NCBI GenBank assembly: GCA_013416435.1
Contig: JACCEN010000006.1
Span: 62,001-126,000, forward strand
DNA: 64,000 bases
Reading direction: 5' to 3'
Source of the DNA: Alcaligenaceae bacterium
Lineage (GTDB): Bacteria > Pseudomonadota > Gammaproteobacteria > Burkholderiales > Burkholderiaceae_B
Each line of letters starts with the position of its first letter. Position 1 is the stretch's first letter. Shown here one piece after another: positions 24,485-34,297 of the stretch. The notes below the pieces were generated by a model, which worked only from the letters and a program-made list of their open reading frames with translations, did no database searches and had not been told where the DNA came from. A program made the translations under genes and the position numbers.

Positions 24485-26032
24485 CTAGCATTGCTCGCCG
24501 GGCGGGATGATGCCCCAATTCAGGTCGATCAAGGGGCTTTTTTCCGATGACCATCGAAGGTCGATACGGCCTTGTATCGGCGCCGCGGCATGAAGCGCCT
24601 TCAGGACAGGATCAGGTTCGCCGCGGGTTTCATGGCTGTACACCACCATGGCGCCGCAGGCGAGGGGCCTGGATTCGTCGAGCCAGGGCGATTCTTCGAG
24701 TTTCCCGTTGATGAATACCTGGGTGCTCATCCCGCGATGGATGGCGATGTTGCCGCCGAGCCAGGTGTCCGATGCCACCAGCGTCATTGGAACTTGCGGC
24801 ACGTGCTGCTGCCAGATGTCGTTCAATTGCTGCGAGATGGTGGCGCCCGGAAAAGTCGAGCGCGTATCGCGGCCCGTGTGCCAGGCCAAGGGGCCGCGGG
24901 CAAGCGCGTAGCCGGCCGCGATGAGCACATGCACGGCAATGCACAAGACGGCGATGCGGCGCAGATTGATCCGCTCGTCGCCGCGCATCCACCACAGCAA
25001 ATAGAAGCCGTAGAGTATGAAGAACGTCGTTCCCCATGACGCCACCAGCCTGGTTCCCAGCACGGCGGAGATCAGCATCGTGGAGAGCACGGGCGCGAGG
25101 CCGATCCAGAGCAGGAAGGAGCGGTCCCAATCGGTAAACTGCGCGCCGTAGCGCTCCGCCGCCTTTGCACGCACGCCATGGCTGCGCTGGTCCCAAAAAT
25201 ACCAGGCCAGCCATGCCACCAGCATGGGGCTCAAGCGGGCAAGCTGGTCCAGCGCGAAACTCAGCAAATGCTTGAGCGCCTGTAGATGGCCTCCCGCTTC
25301 GAGCGAGTTGTCGGCGTAGCGCAAGGGCATGAACGCATTGGCCGCCAGCCAATAAAGATGAGGCGACACGGTGATTGCAAAGGTCAGCAGGGCGAGGGCA
25401 AGGCCTTTCAGGTTGCGCGCATCACGAAAGCTGCCCTGCCGGAGCATGAACAGGAAAAAAGCCGCGAACTGAATGACGGCGCTGTACTTGGTCTGGATCG
25501 ATAGCCCGGAAACCAGGCCCAGCCACGCCCAGGCGCTCAATTTGTGGAATCTCAAGGCGCGGTAAAGCAGCCATGTGCTCGCCGCCACAGACCACAATTG
25601 AGCTGTGTTGTGGTTATAGATGGTGCCGCGCAATGAAAAATAAATGCTGACCGAAACCAGCATCATGGCCATGAAGGCTTTGCGCGGGGTGGTGAATTCG
25701 CGTCCGAGCAGCCACAGAAACCAGAGCGCAAGCGCGGACATCAGTTGTCCCGCAAAGAAGGGCAGCCACACCGGACGGCCGAAAATCTGCGTCAGGAAGT
25801 ACATGAGCCACGAGGGCGCAGGCGGATGCTTGGTATAGCCCAATTCCAGGCTGGATGCCCAGACGAGTTCTTCCAGGCCGTCGAGATCCGGCGCTTGGTG
25901 ACTGATTCCGCATAGCAGCGTCCACAGCACCACCATGCCGGCCAGATAAAGCGCGACTTGGAGATCGAGTCCACTGGCTGACACGCCGGAGTGCCGCGGC
26001 GTGTCGCCGGGATGGAAGGTGCGCGTCGTCAT
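24485..26032 (-). CDS. Glycosyltransferase family 39 (ArnT/PMT-like) membrane protein
   Basis: 515 aa with about ten hydrophobic segments and a soluble C-terminal part (about 400-515). An acidic first periplasmic loop (DLDGLEELVWASSLELGYTK, about 43-62) is typical of GT-C enzymes that move a sugar from a polyprenyl-phosphate donor; the ArnT/PMT relation is clear but acceptor and sugar are unknown. Start 26032 forms an ATGA overlap with the OPT transporter stop, so translation is coupled. Confidence 0.85.
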   Translation of the reverse strand: MTTRTFHPGDTPRHSGVSASGLDLQVALYLAGMVVLWTLLCGISHQAPDLDGLEELVWASSLELGYTKHPPAPSWLMYFLTQIFGRPVWLPFFAGQLMSALALWFLWLLGREFTTPRKAFMAMMLVSVSIYFSLRGTIYNHNTAQLWSVAASTWLLYRALRFHKLSAWAWLGLVSGLSIQTKYSAVIQFAAFFLFMLRQGSFRDARNLKGLALALLTFAITVSPHLYWLAANAFMPLRYADNSLEAGGHLQALKHLLSFALDQLARLSPMLVAWLAWYFWDQRSHGVRAKAAERYGAQFTDWDRSFLLWIGLAPVLSTMLISAVLGTRLVASWGTTFFILYGFYLLWWMRGDERINLRRIAVLCIAVHVLIAAGYALARGPLAWHTGRDTRSTFPGATISQQLNDIWQQHVPQVPMTLVASDTWLGGNIAIHRGMSTQVFINGKLEESPWLDESRPLACGAMVVYSHETRGEPDPVLKALHAAAPIQGRIDLRWSSEKSPLIDLNWGIIPPGEQC

Positions 26033-28047
26033 GGCCGGAGGGCGCGCTTGATGAAAATGAAGCACATGCCTACGAACGCGATCAGTCCGACGAGCTTCGC
26101 GGTCGGGATGAACTCGGGGCCGGCCAGCGCCAAAGGCGCATCGCTGCCACCCGAACCCACCGAGACGACGATGATCATTGCCAGGGCGACGCCGACCAGG
26201 CTCTCACCGACGATCAGGCCCGACGCAAAAAGCGTTCCTTTGCGCTCAGCCTGCTCCAGCCTCGGTGCCGCGTCTTCGCCGGTCTTGCTTGCGGAAGCCC
26301 GGACGCGCTTCTTCACGAACCACGAAATGAGCGTGCCGACGAACAGAGCAGTAACGATGGATGGCGGAAGGTACAGACCCATGGCAACCGCCAGGGACGG
26401 CAACCGCAGTGTGCGGGTGGAACGGGCAAGGACCGTGTCCAGAATGATGACGGCAATGCCGCCGCCGACGCCGATCAGGATGTAGGACCAATCCAGGGTA
26501 TGCGCGAACAGGCCATTGGCGATGGTGATCATGAGCGTGGCTTGCGGCGCGGCCAGCGCCTGCGACGGGTCCATGTCCGCGCGCGGCAGGGCGCCGATGA
26601 AACCGTAGGCATTGTACAGGAGCTCCAGCACGGGCGGAATGGCCAGCGCGCCCACCACGCAGCCGATGATCAACGCCGCTTGCTGCTTCCAGGGCGTGGC
26701 ATGCACCAGCCAGCCTGTTTTCAGGTCTTGAAGATTGTCGTTGGAAATCGCGGCGATGGCCACCACGACGGAGGCGCAGAAAATGGCTAGGGCGGTGAAG
26801 AACCGAACGTGCTGTTCGTTGTCGAGCATGTCCTGCGCCTGCCCGATGCCGATGAAGATCATCGAGACGGCCAGAATGGAGATGACGGCAATGCCCGATA
26901 TTGGACTGGTGGACGACCCCACGAGCCCCGCCATGTAGCCGCAGGCGGCGGCCACCAGAAAGCCCAGCAGGAAGGACAGCAAGGTGCCCGCCACGACCAG
27001 TGTCCAGGCCATCGACGCCGGCAGATCCGAGTCCGCCACGAAGGAGTAGAAGGTGGCCATCAGCAGGACGATCATCAGGATGGTGGTCCGCAGCAAGGTC
27101 CGGGGAGACAGATCGGTATCGGTGCGTGCGACGCTGCTGGACCCGGGGCCGCTTCTCAGTACCGACAAGGAAATGCGCATGCCTTCGTACATCGGCTTGA
27201 TCAAGGTGAGCAAGGTCCAGATTGCCGCAACCGCGATCATGCCTGCGCCGATGAGGCGGACCTTGGATACCCAGATGTCGGTGGCGAAAGCAGCAAGAGT
27301 GGCGCCTTCCGGCATGGGGGTGAGGGTGGTGAGCCAGGGGACGGCGACGCCCCAGGAAAGGAACACACCGAACAGCATGGCGATGCCGCCGGTGATGCCC
27401 ACGAGATAGCCTGCGCCGACAAGGGCGAAAGAAAAGCCGATCGGCAGTTGGAAGATGGCGCGCCCGGCGCTGAACCAATAGCCTGCGCCATCCGATGCAA
27501 GCTTGAAGCCGTTGGCCACCAAGCTGAATATGCCGGCCAGCGCGCTGCCGGCGAGGATGTCGCGCAGGCCCTGCGCTTTCCGCTTGCCGGACGTTTCTTC
27601 ATCGGTGTGGCCGGCGCGCAGGATTTCAGCTGCCGCGACGCCTTCGGGATAGGGAAGTTCGCTTTTGACGACCAGGGCGTGCCGCAACGGTACGGTGAAC
27701 ACCACGCCCAGGATGCCGCCGCAGGCGCAGATCATGGCGGTTTCCAGCAAGGGAAAGCCTTGCCAGTATCCCATCATCAGCAGCGCCGGCAGGACGAAGA
27801 TAATGGCCGAGAGCGTCCCGGCTGCGGAGGCCTGCGTTTGAACGATGTTGTTCTCAAGGATATTGGAATCCTTGAAGGCGCGCAGCAGCGTCATGGAAAT
27901 GACGGCGGCAGGTATCGACGAGGCGAACGTCAGGCCGACCTTGAGTCCGAGATAGACGTTGGACGCTGTAAAGACAAGGGTGATGATGGCGCCGAGGATG
28001 ATACCCCGCAGGGTGAGTTCTCTGAGCGACGTGGCGGTGGCGGGCAT
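26029..28047 (-). CDS. OPT family oligopeptide/metal-chelate transporter
   Basis: 672 aa with about 14-16 hydrophobic segments. OPT signatures: TLRGIILGAIITLVFTASNVY (partly, about 11-31), GLTFASSIPAAVISM and a Gly-rich repeated core. Prokaryotic OPT proteins import peptides or metal-chelate complexes with protons; the substrate is not predictable. Coupled to the GT39 gene by ATGA overlap. Start 28047 follows the family's usual short N-terminus. Confidence 0.88.
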   Translation of the reverse strand: MPATATSLRELTLRGIILGAIITLVFTASNVYLGLKVGLTFASSIPAAVISMTLLRAFKDSNILENNIVQTQASAAGTLSAIIFVLPALLMMGYWQGFPLLETAMICACGGILGVVFTVPLRHALVVKSELPYPEGVAAAEILRAGHTDEETSGKRKAQGLRDILAGSALAGIFSLVANGFKLASDGAGYWFSAGRAIFQLPIGFSFALVGAGYLVGITGGIAMLFGVFLSWGVAVPWLTTLTPMPEGATLAAFATDIWVSKVRLIGAGMIAVAAIWTLLTLIKPMYEGMRISLSVLRSGPGSSSVARTDTDLSPRTLLRTTILMIVLLMATFYSFVADSDLPASMAWTLVVAGTLLSFLLGFLVAAACGYMAGLVGSSTSPISGIAVISILAVSMIFIGIGQAQDMLDNEQHVRFFTALAIFCASVVVAIAAISNDNLQDLKTGWLVHATPWKQQAALIIGCVVGALAIPPVLELLYNAYGFIGALPRADMDPSQALAAPQATLMITIANGLFAHTLDWSYILIGVGGGIAVIILDTVLARSTRTLRLPSLAVAMGLYLPPSIVTALFVGTLISWFVKKRVRASASKTGEDAAPRLEQAERKGTLFASGLIVGESLVGVALAMIIVVSVGSGGSDAPLALAGPEFIPTAKLVGLIAFVGMCFIFIKRALRP

Positions 28048-28129
28048 TGTAGGCGTATCGAGTGCGTGATAAAAAGACGGGGACTGCGCATGCCGGAGCA
28101 TGCGCCGATTCGGACTGCGGCAAACAAAA

Positions 28130-28154
28130 CGAATTGTAACTGCAGTTCTTAATT
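28130..28154 (+). promoter_or_regulatory. Symmetric sequence upstream of nirK
   Basis: A perfect 10-bp palindrome AACTGCAGTT lies inside GAATT and AATTC flanks, about 25-50 bases before the nirK start. It could be an operator. It does not match the FNR/NnrR pattern TTGAT-N4-ATCAA, which I did not find here. Confidence 0.25.
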
Positions 28155-28178: not shown

Positions 28179-29591
28179 ATGGGGATTGTGTTGAGCCATA
28201 CCTTTAGACGGCTATGCCTGTTTCTAATGGCGGCCGTATTGTATGCGGTGGGTAGCGCTGCATGGGCGGCACACGAATCGCATGCCGCCGCGTCGGTCAC
28301 GTATACGCCGGACATCACTTTTACTCTGCGCACCAATATCGCAGACGGCAAGCTCGTGTTCGTGGGCGATGCCGGCACCATAAAGGGCAAAGTGAATCCC
28401 GACCTCCAGGTACCGGAAAACGCCGTGGTCCAGATCAACCTCATCAACGGCGATGGCGCCATTCACGACATTGCCGTGCCTGAATTCTCCGCCAAGTCCG
28501 ACAACCTGACGGGCAAGGGGGCATCGACCGCCATCGTCTTCCGCGCCAACAAGAATGGCGTGTTCGAATACTTATGCACCCTGCCCGGCCACAAGGCGGC
28601 GGGCATGTTCGGCAAGCTGATCGTAGGCGAACCCATACAGCAGGCCGAAAGCCAGGGTCTGGACATCGCCCAGGATCCCACCGCTGTCGGCGAACCGGTC
28701 GGCAAGCGTGAGCCCAAGCACATCACCTTCGATCTGGAAACCACGGAAGTCGTGGGCCAGCTGGCGGAAGGCAGCACCTACAAGTACTGGACGTTCAATG
28801 ACAAGGTTCCCGGTCCTTTCCTGCGCATCCGGGTCGGTGACACGGTAACCGTGAACGTCGCCAACGCGAAGGACTCCTCCCATATCCACTCGGTCGATTT
28901 CCATGCGGTGACGGGCCCCGGTGGCGGCGCGGCGGTAACGCAGGTGCCTCCAGGGCAAACCAAGAGCTTTACCTTCAAGGCGCTGCATCCCGGCTTGTAC
29001 GTGTACCACTGCGCAACGCCCATGGTCGCGCAGCACATCACCAATGGCATGTACGGCATGGTGCTGGTCGAGCCTGAAGAAGGCTTGTCCAAAGTCGATC
29101 GCGAGTTCTATGTCATGCAGGGTGAGCTCTATACCGCACAGAAGCATGGTTCGCTCGGCCTGCAAGAGTTCTCGCTTGAAAAGCTGCTGGACGAAAAGCC
29201 CGAGCACCTGATGTTCAACGGGACCATGGGCGCGCTGTCCGATAAATACAAGCTGAAGGCCGAGGTCGGCGAAACCGTGCGCATTTTCTTCGGCGTGGGC
29301 GGCCCCAACCTGACGTCCAGCTTCCACGTCATCGGCGAAGTGTTCGATCGCGTCTACAACCAGGGCTCCTTGACCAGCCCCCCGCTGACCGACGTGCAGA
29401 CCACCACCGTGGCACCGGGCGGCGCGACCATGGTGGAGTTCAAGGTCGACGTGCCGGGCAACTATATTCTGGTCGACCATGCCCTGTCGCGCGTCGAAAA
29501 AGGCTTGTCCGGCATACTGTCCGTGACCGGCAAGGAAGACCACTCCATCTTCCATTCCAAAGAACCCATTGATCCGAACTCCGGCCATTAA
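28179..29591 (+). CDS. nirK: Copper nitrite reductase with extra N-terminal cupredoxin domain
   Basis: 470 aa, periplasmic, signal peptide about 1-31. Reduces nitrite to nitric oxide in denitrification. Residues about 40-150 form an added cupredoxin with a full type 1 copper set: His96, Cys133, His138 and Met143. The NirK core follows: type 1 ligands His237, Cys278, His286, Met291; type 2 ligands His242, His277, His434; catalytic Asp240 and His383. This N-terminally tethered layout is known from Hyphomicrobium-type NirK. AAGGAAGGAAGAATC gives a strong ribosome site. It stands alone, with no norB, nirV or NO-sensing regulator next to it. Confidence 0.95.
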   Translation: MGIVLSHTFRRLCLFLMAAVLYAVGSAAWAAHESHAAASVTYTPDITFTLRTNIADGKLVFVGDAGTIKGKVNPDLQVPENAVVQINLINGDGAIHDIAVPEFSAKSDNLTGKGASTAIVFRANKNGVFEYLCTLPGHKAAGMFGKLIVGEPIQQAESQGLDIAQDPTAVGEPVGKREPKHITFDLETTEVVGQLAEGSTYKYWTFNDKVPGPFLRIRVGDTVTVNVANAKDSSHIHSVDFHAVTGPGGGAAVTQVPPGQTKSFTFKALHPGLYVYHCATPMVAQHITNGMYGMVLVEPEEGLSKVDREFYVMQGELYTAQKHGSLGLQEFSLEKLLDEKPEHLMFNGTMGALSDKYKLKAEVGETVRIFFGVGGPNLTSSFHVIGEVFDRVYNQGSLTSPPLTDVQTTTVAPGGATMVEFKVDVPGNYILVDHALSRVEKGLSGILSVTGKEDHSIFHSKEPIDPNSGH

Positions 29592-29597
29592 TGGATA

Positions 29598-29743
29598 GGG
29601 TCAGACCTGATGGGGTCTGACCCTGCCTCTGTTCCTGGGGTCAGACCCCGTACGGGGTCTGACCCCTCAACACGCTTCAGGTGTTCCTGGATTCGGAGCC
29701 CGCGCTTATTTCTGGGGTCAGACCCCCTACGGGGTCTGACCCC
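29598..29743. repeat. Palindromic repeat cluster 5 (three copies)
   Basis: Copies at 29598-29623 (shortened, outer pair A and T), 29637-29666 (centre GTAC) and 29714-29743 (centre CTAC). Between two plus-strand genes, nirK and the stress-domain membrane protein. Confidence 0.93.
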
Positions 29744-29811
29744 TCAACATGCTTCAGGCACAAAGATTGCTGCCGCTCCGTGGAGGGCTTATGCCGCACC
29801 AGGAGCATCGT

Positions 29812-30342
29812 ATGGTATGGAATGTTTTGTTTGGCGAACGCTCGACGACGAAAATCGCCGCGGTCTTTGACACCGAGCAAGGCGCAGCCACAGCCGCAGC
29901 GGCGATTCATTCCAACGCTCATCTGCAGGCCGCCCAGATCCGCCTGATAAAGCCGTACGAAAAGGATTACGCCAAGAAAATCGAACCCGAGCCGCAAGGC
30001 ATCGTGCGCACCGCGTTGCGTGCGCATCTGTTGCTTGGCGTGGCGGGGGCGGTGATCGCCATTGTCGGCTGGGGATTGCTGTATCTCATCGGAATCATGG
30101 CGATCACGTCCACGCCGCTGGGCAGTCTTGCCGTCTTCGTCTTCTTCGGTGCGATCGCGGGCATGCTGCTGGGCGGGCTCGTGACCGCCAGGCCCGACCA
30201 CCAACTGGTCATACAGCGCGTGCAGACCGCAACGCAGGAAGGAAGATGGTCCTTGCTGATACATCCACGAACGCCCAGGCAGTGCGACGATGTAATGGCT
30301 GCCTTGTCAGGCATCGATGCCGAGGTCACGCGCAGTGTCTGA
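29812..30342 (+). CDS. Membrane protein with YflT-like (general stress 17M) N-terminus
   Basis: 176 aa. The N-terminal part (KIAAVFDTEQGAATAAAAIH, about 12-31) resembles the ferredoxin-like domain that brings paired residues together in heat-induced YflT-like proteins. Two hydrophobic segments follow (about 80-105 and 112-135, the latter Gly-rich: GMLLGGLV). Two starts have ribosome sites: 29812 (AGGAG) and 29791 (GGAGG). Function unknown. Convergent with the globin gene. Confidence 0.7.
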   Translation: MVWNVLFGERSTTKIAAVFDTEQGAATAAAAIHSNAHLQAAQIRLIKPYEKDYAKKIEPEPQGIVRTALRAHLLLGVAGAVIAIVGWGLLYLIGIMAITSTPLGSLAVFVFFGAIAGMLLGGLVTARPDHQLVIQRVQTATQEGRWSLLIHPRTPRQCDDVMAALSGIDAEVTRSV

Positions 30343-30375: not shown

Positions 30376-30780
30376 TCATTCTTCCCGATTGCGCATCCAA
30401 TCGGCGGTGTGCCGGAAGGAGGGCAGCAGGTGTTGCCGCAGCGCTTCGTCCACGTCGATATCGATCATGGCCTGGTCCATGCATGCAACCCACTGGTCCC
30501 GTTCCGGGGTTCCGATAGAGAACGGCAGATGCCTGGCCCTGAGCATGGGATGACCGACCCGATCCATATAATACGAAGGACCACCCAGCCAGCCGCAAAG
30601 AAACCAGAACAAGCGTTCTCTGGCATGGCTCAGATCGGGACCATGAGCGGCGCGCAGGGCGGCGTACCGAGGCTCGAGGTCCATCAGATCGTAGAAGCGC
30701 TCGACCAGGGCAAGCACGCGGTCTTCGCCGCCCAGCCACTCGTAAGGCGTATCGAAAGTTTGTTTGGCTTGGTTTTCCAT
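30376..30780 (-). CDS. Group II truncated hemoglobin
   Basis: 134 aa. Family pattern: GGEDRVLALVERFYDLMD (about 17-34), LFWFLCGWLGGPSYYMDRVG, and the proximal heme ligand His84 within RARHLPF. Group II (GlbO-like) globins bind O2 or NO and take part in oxygen handling or NO detoxification. Close to nirK (1 kb), which produces NO; this functional link is an inference. Confidence 0.9.
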   Translation of the reverse strand: MENQAKQTFDTPYEWLGGEDRVLALVERFYDLMDLEPRYAALRAAHGPDLSHARERLFWFLCGWLGGPSYYMDRVGHPMLRARHLPFSIGTPERDQWVACMDQAMIDIDVDEALRQHLLPSFRHTADWMRNREE

Positions 30781-30803
30781 GGCCGGAAGTATAGCGTCAG
30801 GCG

Positions 30804-30876
30804 AGGGTCAGACCCCGTATGGGGCCTGACCCTTTCCACCTTAGCCGGGGTCAGACCCCGTATGGGGTCTGACCCC
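30804..30876. repeat. Palindromic repeat cluster 6 (two copies)
   Basis: Copies at 30804-30832 (outer pair A and T, one C for T change inside) and 30847-30876 (centre GTAT), between two minus-strand genes. The metE stop codon begins one base after the second copy. Confidence 0.93.
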
Positions 30877-30877
30877 C

Positions 30878-33160
30878 CTAGGCCTGGCGCAAGGTTTGCG
30901 CCGCCGCCACCATGTTCTTCAGCGCCGGAATCACTTCGGCCCAGGCGCGGGTCTTCAGGCCGCAATCCGGATTCACCCAAAGCCGTTCCGCGGGGATGCG
31001 CTGGCTCGCCTTCTTCATGAGTTCGACGATGTGCTCCTGCGTCGGGATATTGGGCGAGTGGATGTCATAGACACCGGGGCCGATCTCGTTCGGATAATTG
31101 AAATTGTCGAACGCATCCAGCAGCTCCATGTCCGAGCGCGAGGTCTCGATGGTGATGACATCCGCGTCCATGTCCGCGATCGAGGCGATGATGTCGTTGA
31201 ACTCCGAATAGCACATATGCGTATGGATCTGAGTGTCATCCTTGACGCCGTTCGCCGTGATGCGGAATGATTCCACCGCCCAGTCCAGGTATTCCAGCCA
31301 TTGCGATTTGCGCAGGGGCAGGCCTTCGCGCAGCGCCGCTTCGTCGATCTGAATGACATGCACGCCGGCTTTTTCCAGATCCAGCACCTCCTGGCGGATG
31401 GCCAGTGCCAATTGGAAGCATGACACGGAACGAGGCTGGTCGTCGCGCACGAACGACCAGTTCAGGATGGTGACGGGTCCGGTCAACATGCCCTTCATGG
31501 GTTTCTGCGTCAGCGTCTGGGCATAGGTGATCCATTCGACCGTCATGGCCTTGGGACGGGTAATGTCGCCGAACAGAATAGGCGGCTTCACGCAGCGCGA
31601 GCCATAGGACTGGACCCAGCCGAACTGGCTGAAGGCATAGCCTTCCAGCTGCTCGCCGAAGTATTCCACCATGTCGTTGCGCTCTGCTTCGCCATGCACC
31701 AGTACGTCCAGGCCCAGAGCTTCCTGCTCGCGGACCGAGCGTGCAATCTCGGCTTGCATGGCATCTTTGTATGCCGCCGGATCGAGATCCCCCTTGCGGA
31801 ACTGCTGGCGAGCCTGGCGGATTTCAGCCGTCTGCGGGAAGGATCCGATGGTGGTCGTGGGGAAGGCGGGCAGCCTGAGCAGCTCGGCCTGCTTCTCCGC
31901 GCGCTGGGAGTACGGGCTTTTACGCCTGCCCAGGGCGGCATCGATGCCGGCAAGCGCTGCCTTGACTTCGGGCTTGTTCACGCGTGGCGAATTGCGGCGG
32001 GAGGCGATGGCCGCCTGGTTCGCCTGGAGTTCCGGCTGGACCGAAGCGCGGCCGGTATTGAGCGCGCGAGCCAGCAGCTTGATTTCGTCGAGCTTCTGCA
32101 GGGCAAACGCGAGCCAGGACCGGATGTCGGCATCGAGCGCCGTTTCGCTGTCCAGGTCCACCGGAACGTGCAGCAGCGAGCACGAAGGGGCGATCCACAA
32201 GCGGGCGCCGAGCTTCGCATGTATGGGTTCAAGCAGGTCCAGCACCCGGTTGAGATCGGTCTTCCAGATATTGCGGCCGTTGACCACTCCGAGGGAAAGC
32301 ACTTTGTCGCCGGGCAGGGCGGCGATGGCGGGCTGGATGTCCGCCGCGCCATTGATGGCGTCGATGTGCAGGCCCTGCACCGGCAGGGCGCAGGCCAGGG
32401 GCAGGTTTTCCAGCAGTTGGCCGAAATAAGTGGCCAGCAGTATCTTGATCTTGCCGGTGTCCAGAGCCTGGTAAGCGGAGGCATAGGCTTGCTTCCACGC
32501 CGGTTCCAGTTCCGTGACCAGCGCGGGTTCGTCGATTTGCACCCACTCCGCACCGCGGGAAGCGAGTTCTTCCAGCAGCTTCACATAGACGGGCAGCAGA
32601 CGAGGCAGGAGATCGAGGCGACTGGAGCCGTCCTTGGCCTTGCCGATGAACAGATAACTGAGGGGGCCGAGAATCACCGGCTTGGCCGAGATCCCGAGTT
32701 CACGCGCCTCGTCGAGCTGCGCCACGAGACGGGATGCATCCAGCGAAAAGCTGGTGGACGCGCTGAATTCCGGCACGATGTAGTGGTAGTTGGTATCGAA
32801 CCACTTGGTCATTTCGCCGGCCTGTACGCCATGGCTGCAACCGCAGTCGCCATGAGATGCCGAGCGGCCGCGCGCCACGCGGAAGTAATTGTCCAGCGCA
32901 TCTCCCTGGAAGTCCTGTACTCGCTCGGGCAGATTGCCCAGCGTGAAGCTCATGTCTAGAACCTGGTCGTAGAAAGAGAAGTCGCCCACGGGCAGCAAGT
33001 CCAGTCCTTGCTGCTTGCTCCAGTGCGTCTTGCGCAATTCGCGTGCTGTTTCCCGGAGCGCATCGCGACTGGATTTGCCGTTCCAGTATGCTTCCAGCGC
33101 AAATTTGAGTTCGCGGCGTGCGCCGATACGGGGAAAGCCCAGATTGTGTGTCGTTACCAT
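30878..33160 (-). CDS. metE: Cobalamin-independent methionine synthase
   Basis: 760 aa, full length. Transfers a methyl group from 5-methyltetrahydropteroyl-triglutamate to homocysteine. N-terminal half-barrel starts [14 protein letters not shown]. The C-terminal catalytic barrel has [22 protein letters not shown] (zinc-site His, Glu and Cys region), [13 protein letters not shown] and NPDCGLKTR (zinc Cys). Divergent from a metR-like LysR gene 110 bases away, which probably activates it. Confidence 0.95.
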
Positions 33161-33270: not shown

Positions 33271-34200
33271 ATGCTCGAACGCATCCACCTGGCCATACTC
33301 CGAGAAGTCCGTCGGCAAGGCACGCTCACCGCCGCTGCGGATATTCTTTGCCTGACGCAATCGGCGTTGAGCCATACCGTGAAGAAGCTGGAAGACCAGA
33401 TGGGAACGGCGATCTGGATACGCGAAGGAAGAAAGCTGAGGCTGACGCAGGCAGGCGAGTATCTGCTCAGTGTTGCCGAGCGCGTATTGCCGCAGCTGGA
33501 ACATGCGGAAGGAAGAGTGCGCCAGTATGCACAAGGAGAACGGGGCACCCTTCGGATCGGCATGGAATGCCATCCCTGCTACCAATGGCTGCTGAAGGTC
33601 GTCGCGCCTTATCTTGCAAAATGGCCGGACGTCGATGTAGACGTCAAGCAGAAATTCCAGTTCGGCGGCATCGGGGCGCTGTTCGGCTACGAGATCGACC
33701 TGCTGGTCACGCCTGACCCGCTATACCGGAGCGGGCTGCGCTACGAACCAGTTTTTGATTACGAGCAGGTCCTGGTGGCGGCGGCAAACCATCCGCTGGC
33801 GGCGGCCGAGCATGTCGAGCCCAGGCAGTTGGCCGATCAGGTCTTGATCACCTATCCCGTGGCAATCGACAGGCTGGATATCTATGCCCAGTTCCTCATG
33901 CCGGCCGGCATCATGCCGCGACGGCACAAGGCAATCGAAACCACGGACATCATGCTGCAGATGGTCGAAAGCGGGCGCGGCGTGGCGGCACTGCCACGCT
34001 GGCTCGTCGAGGAATACCAGGAAAAGATGGACTTGCGGGCCATTCGGCTGGGGACTGAAGGTATTGCCAAGCAAATATTCCTGGGCGCGCGCGTGGCCGA
34101 CCGCGATATCGATTATCTGGAGTCGTTCATCGACATGGCACGCAACGGCAAGAAGGAGGGGTCAGACCCCGTACGGGGTCTGACCCCGGCCAAGTCATGA
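33271..34200 (+). CDS. metR: LysR-type regulator, MetR-like
   Basis: 309 aa. HTH at about 1-60 (TLTAAADILCLTQSALSHTVKKLE) and an effector domain with GTLRIGMECHPCYQWLLKV (about 91-109), the segment typical of MetR proteins that sense homocysteine. Divergent from metE. The last 14 residues (EGSDPVRGLTPAKS) are encoded by a palindromic repeat (34158-34187), so the natural C-terminus has been extended by repeat DNA. Confidence 0.9.
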   Translation: MLERIHLAILREVRRQGTLTAAADILCLTQSALSHTVKKLEDQMGTAIWIREGRKLRLTQAGEYLLSVAERVLPQLEHAEGRVRQYAQGERGTLRIGMECHPCYQWLLKVVAPYLAKWPDVDVDVKQKFQFGGIGALFGYEIDLLVTPDPLYRSGLRYEPVFDYEQVLVAAANHPLAAAEHVEPRQLADQVLITYPVAIDRLDIYAQFLMPAGIMPRRHKAIETTDIMLQMVESGRGVAALPRWLVEEYQEKMDLRAIRLGTEGIAKQIFLGARVADRDIDYLESFIDMARNGKKEGSDPVRGLTPAKS

Positions 34201-34295
34201 GGCTCTTTGGGGTCAGACCCCGCATGGGGTCTGACCCCTGGGCCCAACGGTCTTGAGGTTCTTTTGGGGTCAGACCCCGTACGGGGTCTGACCCC
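34158..34295. repeat. Palindromic repeat cluster 7 (three copies)
   Basis: Copies at 34158-34187 (centre GTAC, inside the 3' end of metR), 34209-34238 (centre GCAT) and 34266-34295 (centre GTAC). They lie between convergent metR and the NYN gene, whose stop is 2 bases from the last copy. Confidence 0.95.
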
Positions 34296-34297
34296 TC

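Follow-up and report, generated by a model that had tools for sequence, protein, structure and literature searches.

Does a cupredoxin domain fused to the N-terminus of a copper nitrite reductase (NirK) feed electrons to the enzyme, or does it serve another purpose? What tethered donors contribute to NirK is still debated, and the evidence on N-terminal cupredoxins comes from enzymes of two strains of a single species. The question is posed here by an open reading frame (28179-29591, plus strand) in a 64,000-nucleotide stretch of DNA (the window; contig C46, 62001-126000) from an Alcaligenaceae draft genome of 55 contigs, absences from which are not final. The frame starts with ATG, spans 470 codons from ATG to stop and encodes a 470-amino acid NirK. 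With a probability of about 0.87, we take its product to be a periplasmic nitrite reductase of the Hyphomicrobium denitrificans type, in which the tether would be a working type 1 (T1) copper donor domain and the NO formed would be cleared by cNOR and qNOR enzymes encoded elsewhere. The gene is laid out as follows.

28179..29591, plus strand: whole gene, NirK with N-terminal cupredoxin (open reading frame; TIGR02376 above cut-off; match to 6tfd and 2dv6 over residues 35-465)
28179..28268, plus strand: probable Sec-type signal region, residues 1-30 (by eye: RR, a hydrophobic stretch, and AWA ahead of residue 31)
28299..28634, plus strand: tethered cupredoxin, residues 41-152, with ligands His96, Cys133, His138 and Met143 (PF00127, PF13473; fold match 6tfd)
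28302..28304, plus strand: codon of Tyr42, at the place of His27 of the H. denitrificans enzyme by structure-based alignment (from fold-alignment ranges; a gapless alignment gives Thr43)
28635..28709, plus strand: linker, residues 153-177 (the gap between both domain matches)
28710..29564, plus strand: NirK core, residues 178-462 (TIGR02376 at 163-461; fold match 6the)

Both copper modules score above their curated cut-offs, in agreement with the sequence-only reading, which had described a NirK with an N-terminal tethered cupredoxin. In Pfam, the tether matches PF00127 (Copper-bind; 45.8 against a cut-off of 21.2) and PF13473 (Cupredoxin_1; 44.7 against 27) at about residues 70-149, and the core matches multicopper-oxidase domains at about residues 196-301; the NCBIfam model of copper nitrite reductase, TIGR02376, scores 347.6 bits, above its cut-off of 296.3. 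No cytochrome c match was found in Pfam behind the core of the window protein, and the chain stops soon after the core. Alignment to 6tfd, with the residues named in PMC7201279, places the core T1 ligands at His237, Cys278, His286 and Met291, the type 2 (T2) ligands at His242, His277 and His434, and AspCAT and HisCAT at Asp240 and His383, so that the core is complete; the four tether ligands likewise stand at the positions that had been claimed for them. In fact, every one of the 13 copper and catalytic residues (tether, core T1, T2, AspCAT and HisCAT) is invariant among the 111 tethered NirKs aligned, a set that comprises the window protein, 30 copies from genomes of the same family (one genome twice) and 80 named loci, with some genomes present in both sets and the rows consequently not all independent. 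HisCAT lies within SSFHVIG (residues 380-386), which follows the pattern SSFH(V/I/P) given as the signature of clade II NirKs (PMC13086519). Removal of the tether along with the signal region is disfavored by position: the domain begins at about residue 41 and the signal region, judged by eye, ends at about residue 30, and the tether thus appears to lie clear of it.

Among solved structures, phmmer retrieves 6tfd (E 3.6e-161, residues 35-465) and also 2dv6, both of them H. denitrificans enzymes (HdNiR), while Foldseek returns 2dv6, 6tfd and 6tfo as the top matches of an AlphaFold2 monomer model of the whole protein (40 sequences; mean pLDDT 77.5). The core superposes on 6the with a Z of 39.8 and an rmsd of 1.6 Å over 293 residues (VIA). 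The whole model compared with 2dv6 gives a Z of 39.4 and an rmsd of 10.1 Å over 406 residues (VIA), and the domain arrangement is therefore not set by the monomer model. Modeled alone (pLDDT 86.8), the tether is predicted to fold onto the cupredoxin of the three-domain NirK 6tfd (Z 21.1, 1.4 Å, 110 residues, 49% identity), with the next family at Z 13.8, a prediction that supports the domain assignment.

The window protein shares its domain order and its copper and catalytic residues with the H. denitrificans NirKs (2dv6, 6tfd, 6tfo), to which it is approximately 55-59% identical; the second-sphere residue Glu76 of those enzymes is replaced by Asp92, an aspartate in 111 of 111 aligned proteins. 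The four-domain heme-cupredoxin-NirK of Bradyrhizobium sp. ORS 375 (6the) has a similar core fold, but the window protein lacks the heme domain. The core fold and the possession of a tethered redox partner are also common to the Ralstonia pickettii NirK (3ziy), in which, however, the tether is a C-terminal cytochrome c. Pold et al. 2024 (PMC10999283) describe clade 1e of the NirK phylogeny as akin to the enzymes of H. denitrificans and Bradyrhizobium ORS 375, and the window protein would belong to it as judged by sequence similarity rather than by placement in that tree. NirKs encoded on two Deinococcus plasmids (L161, L162) also consist of an N-terminal cupredoxin followed by a core, the latter 63% identical to that of the window protein, but differ in the N-terminal peptide; one of these genes adjoins an Rrf2-type regulator.

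The suggestion that tethered electron donors are rare in NirK did not survive a wider search. Of the 268 genomes of the GTDB family, 105 match at 1e-30 and 30 hold a full-length NirK with an N-terminal cupredoxin; an even draw of the phylum gave 20 matches at 1e-70 in 398 genomes, four of them (own genome included) over the tether. The crystal structure of such an enzyme (2dv6) dates from 2007, and PMC13324648 puts the share of nirK denitrifiers with extended enzymes at roughly 30% or more. A scan of genome contigs found 110 relatives, of which 80 were kept, with hosts that include Alcaligenaceae, Oxalobacteraceae, Comamonadaceae, Nitrosospira, Marinobacter, Stutzerimonas, Halomonadaceae, Lysobacter and others; on plasmids, coverage of at least 80% was seen in 2 of 63 matching records, both from Deinococcus. 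The window NirK is thus a new member of an already known family. Its closest partner is the protein of Parapusillimonas granuli, with which it groups in the tree (support 100/100) and whose genome is the genus sibling (91% identity). On whether the tether arose once, a tree of the core requires four changes of the tether label, of which the starred branches force only one; owing to a very long outgroup branch (7.84), the root of this tree carries no meaning. One relative (G211) carries two tethered NirK genes on one contig (L068, L069), 82% and 75% identical to that of the window, the second of which groups with Castellaniella-type genes in the tree.

The tether is the most constrained part of the protein. 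Against the copy in P. granuli LMG 24012 (G187), dN/dS is 0.018 for the tether, 0.061 for the core, 0.39 for the signal region and 0.085 for the whole gene; a chance open reading frame or antisense artefact is excluded by these ratios together with the domain matches, and the values for tether and core show that the gene is no relic either. The latter point bears on the idea that the gene is a redundant leftover, its work done by a second NirK of the same genome and its nor neighbor and FNR box gone through decay. The second NirK does exist, and neither an FNR box nor a nor neighbor accompanies the window nirK (see below); given the low dN/dS and the retention of every ligand and of a promoter element, however, we regard decay as highly improbable.

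Once expressed, exported, loaded with copper and assembled into a presumed hexamer, the enzyme would accept an electron from a periplasmic donor at the type 1 copper of the tether, which would pass it to the core type 1 copper (that of the neighboring subunit in HdNiR) and on to the type 2 site, where this clade II/1e NirK would catalyze the reaction NO2- + e- + 2H+ -> NO + H2O. Pulse radiolysis of HdNiR, in which the tether copper receives electrons before the core does (as retold in PMC7201279), is consistent with such a path. In HdNiR crystals, by contrast, the tether copper lies approximately 24 Å from the core T1Cu, a distance described as too great for transfer to be effective, and the enzyme of strain 1NES1 shows low activity (PMC7201279), for which reasons the tether may not be mainly a donor. 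It could instead be a genuine copper domain with a mainly structural or regulatory role, building the hexamer while its N-terminal peptide caps the T2 site, so that a free donor would feed the core T1Cu directly and the cap would protect the T2 copper from reduction without nitrite. The HdNiR hexamer with its 24 Å gap, in which the N-terminal peptide covers the T2Cu (PMC7201279), agrees with this proposal, as does the description of tethered NirKs as resistant to reductive inactivation (PMC13324648), and the stronger constraint on the tether than on the core would suit either an interface or a donor. Four copper ligands intact in every aligned protein would nevertheless be needless for a purely structural domain, and together with the radiolysis they make this alternative rather unlikely in our view.

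The N-terminal peptide is also where the window protein departs from HdNiR. In the latter (Hd1NES1), His27 of this peptide anchors nitrite via water molecules and may complete a path for electrons that follows the strand 30-36 (PMC7201279). None of the 111 tethered NirKs has a histidine at residues 41-45, and anchoring by a His27 counterpart is thus not found among them; some histidine does occur within the 14 residues before Asp45 in 61 of the 111, and a substitute is accordingly possible. Residue 42 is tyrosine in 90 of the 111, and residue 43 is varied (R 35, T 27, K 14). Fold alignments of the tether pair model residue 11 with 6tfd residue 26 and model residue 12 with residue 24 of 2dv6 (His24, the equivalent of His27), and the full model pairs residue 14 with 6tfo residue 29; since model residue 12 is Tyr42, the tyrosine would fall on the place of His27, in pairings that are deduced from the end points that VIA prints. 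The gapless alignment to 6tfd instead puts Thr43 there. The tyrosine is also present in a distant relative (L165, 54%), and the Deinococcus proteins have neither this tyrosine nor His27. A gate tyrosine near the T2Cu, Tyr323, is known from the linker of RpNiR (PMC13324648). We therefore raise, as a tentative and on balance unlikely proposal, that in the beta- and gammaproteobacterial tethered NirKs a conserved Tyr42 replaces His27 and caps and gates the T2 copper in the manner of RpNiR Tyr323. If so, a tyrosine latch would have arisen convergently in NirKs tethered at opposite ends, and both the nitrite anchoring by His27 and the electron path along the strand, as published, would be peculiar to Hyphomicrobium.

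The expectation that NO is handled elsewhere in the genome was borne out by a genome-wide search for norB. Six COX1-family genes are present, two of which are NO reductases by their layout: a NorB inside a norCBQD cluster on contig C2, and a 766-amino acid qNOR with a NorB cytochrome-like domain on contig C24, adjoining a hemerythrin gene. The second NirK (L001:1057-2538, contig C3) scores 528.9 bits with TIGR02376 and carries a C-terminal cytochrome c (PF13442 at 417-488); it has the R. pickettii layout, yet its motif TRPHL is that of clade I. The genome thus holds two differently wired NirKs, one fused to a cupredoxin and one to a cytochrome. A second, more distant NirK is likewise found in 23 of the 30 tethered-NirK genomes of the family, and two NirKs of different clades were reported earlier for Pusillimonas sp. 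T7-7 (PMC4770552). The four molybdopterin oxidoreductase matches correspond to a formate dehydrogenase, a NuoG-sized protein, a fusion of an assimilatory-type enzyme with a flavoprotein reductase, and a formate dehydrogenase-N, so that neither Nar nor Nap was found in the draft genome; NirS was not found there either, and NosZ yielded only sub-cut-off matches to cupredoxin stretches. The gene content would accordingly support the conversion of nitrite to N2O only. On contig C7, a molybdopterin oxidoreductase with a C-terminal flavohemoprotein-type reductase (L057) is perhaps an assimilatory nitrate reductase.

The NorC of the C2 cluster (L059:8737-9600) is itself unusual in layout, with 287 amino acids and two CXXCH motifs (at 57 and 194); solved NorC chains have 146-150 amino acids and match only approximately residues 13-137 of it. 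Two such motifs also occur in 20 NorC homologues near tethered nirK genes (several loci duplicated), and no paper on a two-heme NorC was found by title in the literature searched. An obligate pairing with tethered NirK was considered and rejected: two-heme NorC occurs in only 15 of 30 tethered-NirK genomes and in 9 of 238 others, one of which (G130) has a fragmented tethered NirK (Fisher 8.9e-11, uncorrected for relatedness).

Around the window nirK, the genes closest at hand are the following.

26029..28101, minus strand: OPT-family transporter, divergent, 77 bp from nirK (PF03169, 361 bits)
29749..30342, plus strand: 197-amino acid membrane-like protein, the downstream neighbor (no Pfam or NCBIfam match)
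30376..30780, minus strand: truncated hemoglobin, a possible NO scavenger, 785 bp downstream of nirK (PF01152, 130.5 bits)

Of 96 relative loci, 7 have an OPT transporter close to tethered nirK and 18 the membrane-like protein, a conserved downstream neighbor (some duplicates in each count); the truncated hemoglobin is linked to tethered nirK in 0 of the 96. As the sequence-only reading had stated, no nor gene is found among the listed neighbors in the window. Elsewhere, norC lies within 10 kb in 16 of 80 named loci and a qNOR in three more, in a set where many stretches end at contig edges. Stutzerimonas loci have nirK and then norCBQD directly, as is also described for Stutzerimonas members of clade 1e (PMC13086519). 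In Pollutimonas and Candidimonas (L080-L083), nirK has the same location in the genome, close to LysR, helicase and transporter genes shared with the window, and norCBQD sits in between, whereas the norCBQD of the window genome is on another contig. Just behind the window nirK, among other places, lies an intergenic palindrome, GGGGTCAGACCCC-GTAC-GGGGTCTGACCCC, found at 29633-29745, 30800-30878, 34154-34297 and elsewhere in the window, often paired at gene ends (11 copies in 19 kb); its half-sites, GGGTCAGACCC, number 45 in the 64 kb, both strands counted.

The second part of the claimed isolation, the lack of an FNR-type box, also holds: no FNR-like site with fewer than four mismatches is present in the 500 bp upstream of the window nirK. 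Such a box (at most one mismatch, TTG and CAA intact, starts estimated) occurs in 37 of 79 named upstream regions, compared with 0.6 in shuffles; the 79 are those of the 80 loci with enough sequence, and several Stutzerimonas loci among them are near copies. What the gene does have upstream is a conserved element.

28132..28145, plus strand: conserved upstream element AATTGTAACTGCAG (the same element stands upstream of nirK in close relatives)

This element is probably the -10/start region of the nirK promoter. Close relatives also carry the 14-bp element, AATTGTAAGCGCAG, ahead of their nirK genes. In its AATTGTANNNGCAG form it has a single match in the genome, at nirK itself, and revealed no regulon. 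L004, L008 and L013 have an FNR box with 1, 0 and 1 mismatches, respectively, that starts exactly 38 bp upstream of the element, close to the distance that one would expect at a promoter activated by FNR. The window shows 7 mismatches there and P. granuli 9, and the Pollutimonas and Candidimonas loci L006, L007, L010 and L011 likewise lack the box; L009, L011 and L012 have no good promoter element (4-6 mismatches), and that of L013 is weak (4). The box is probably missing because control has been lost or replaced. Because sister genera have norCBQD or the box, the isolation of the window nirK is a state of its lineage rather than a property of the enzyme. The neighboring truncated hemoglobin possibly acts as a scavenger of NO.

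The cytochrome-fused nirK on contig C3 has a Crp/Fnr-family gene next to it and, at -80, a site TTGTTCTGCAGCAA, so the two nirK genes are apparently under different control. From this follows a possible division of labor, conceivable if still short of probable, in which the window NirK works mainly where FNR is silent (in the presence of oxygen, or constitutively), nitrite detoxification being one example, and the cytochrome-fused NirK serves anaerobic respiration. The box is absent exactly where L004, L008 and L013 have it while the promoter element stays, and the missing Nar, Nap, NirS and NosZ of the draft genome would suit such a role; Pollutimonas relatives, however, are without the box and yet have norCBQD adjoining.

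With the function of such tethers under debate, the window NirK, read as an H. denitrificans-type enzyme with a probable donor domain, is a useful addition to the family. A large branch of tethered NirKs keeps every copper ligand and yet is without the residue that is central to the published mechanism, and a single genome that encodes one NirK fused to a cupredoxin and another fused to a cytochrome is a natural experiment on the purpose of the tether.
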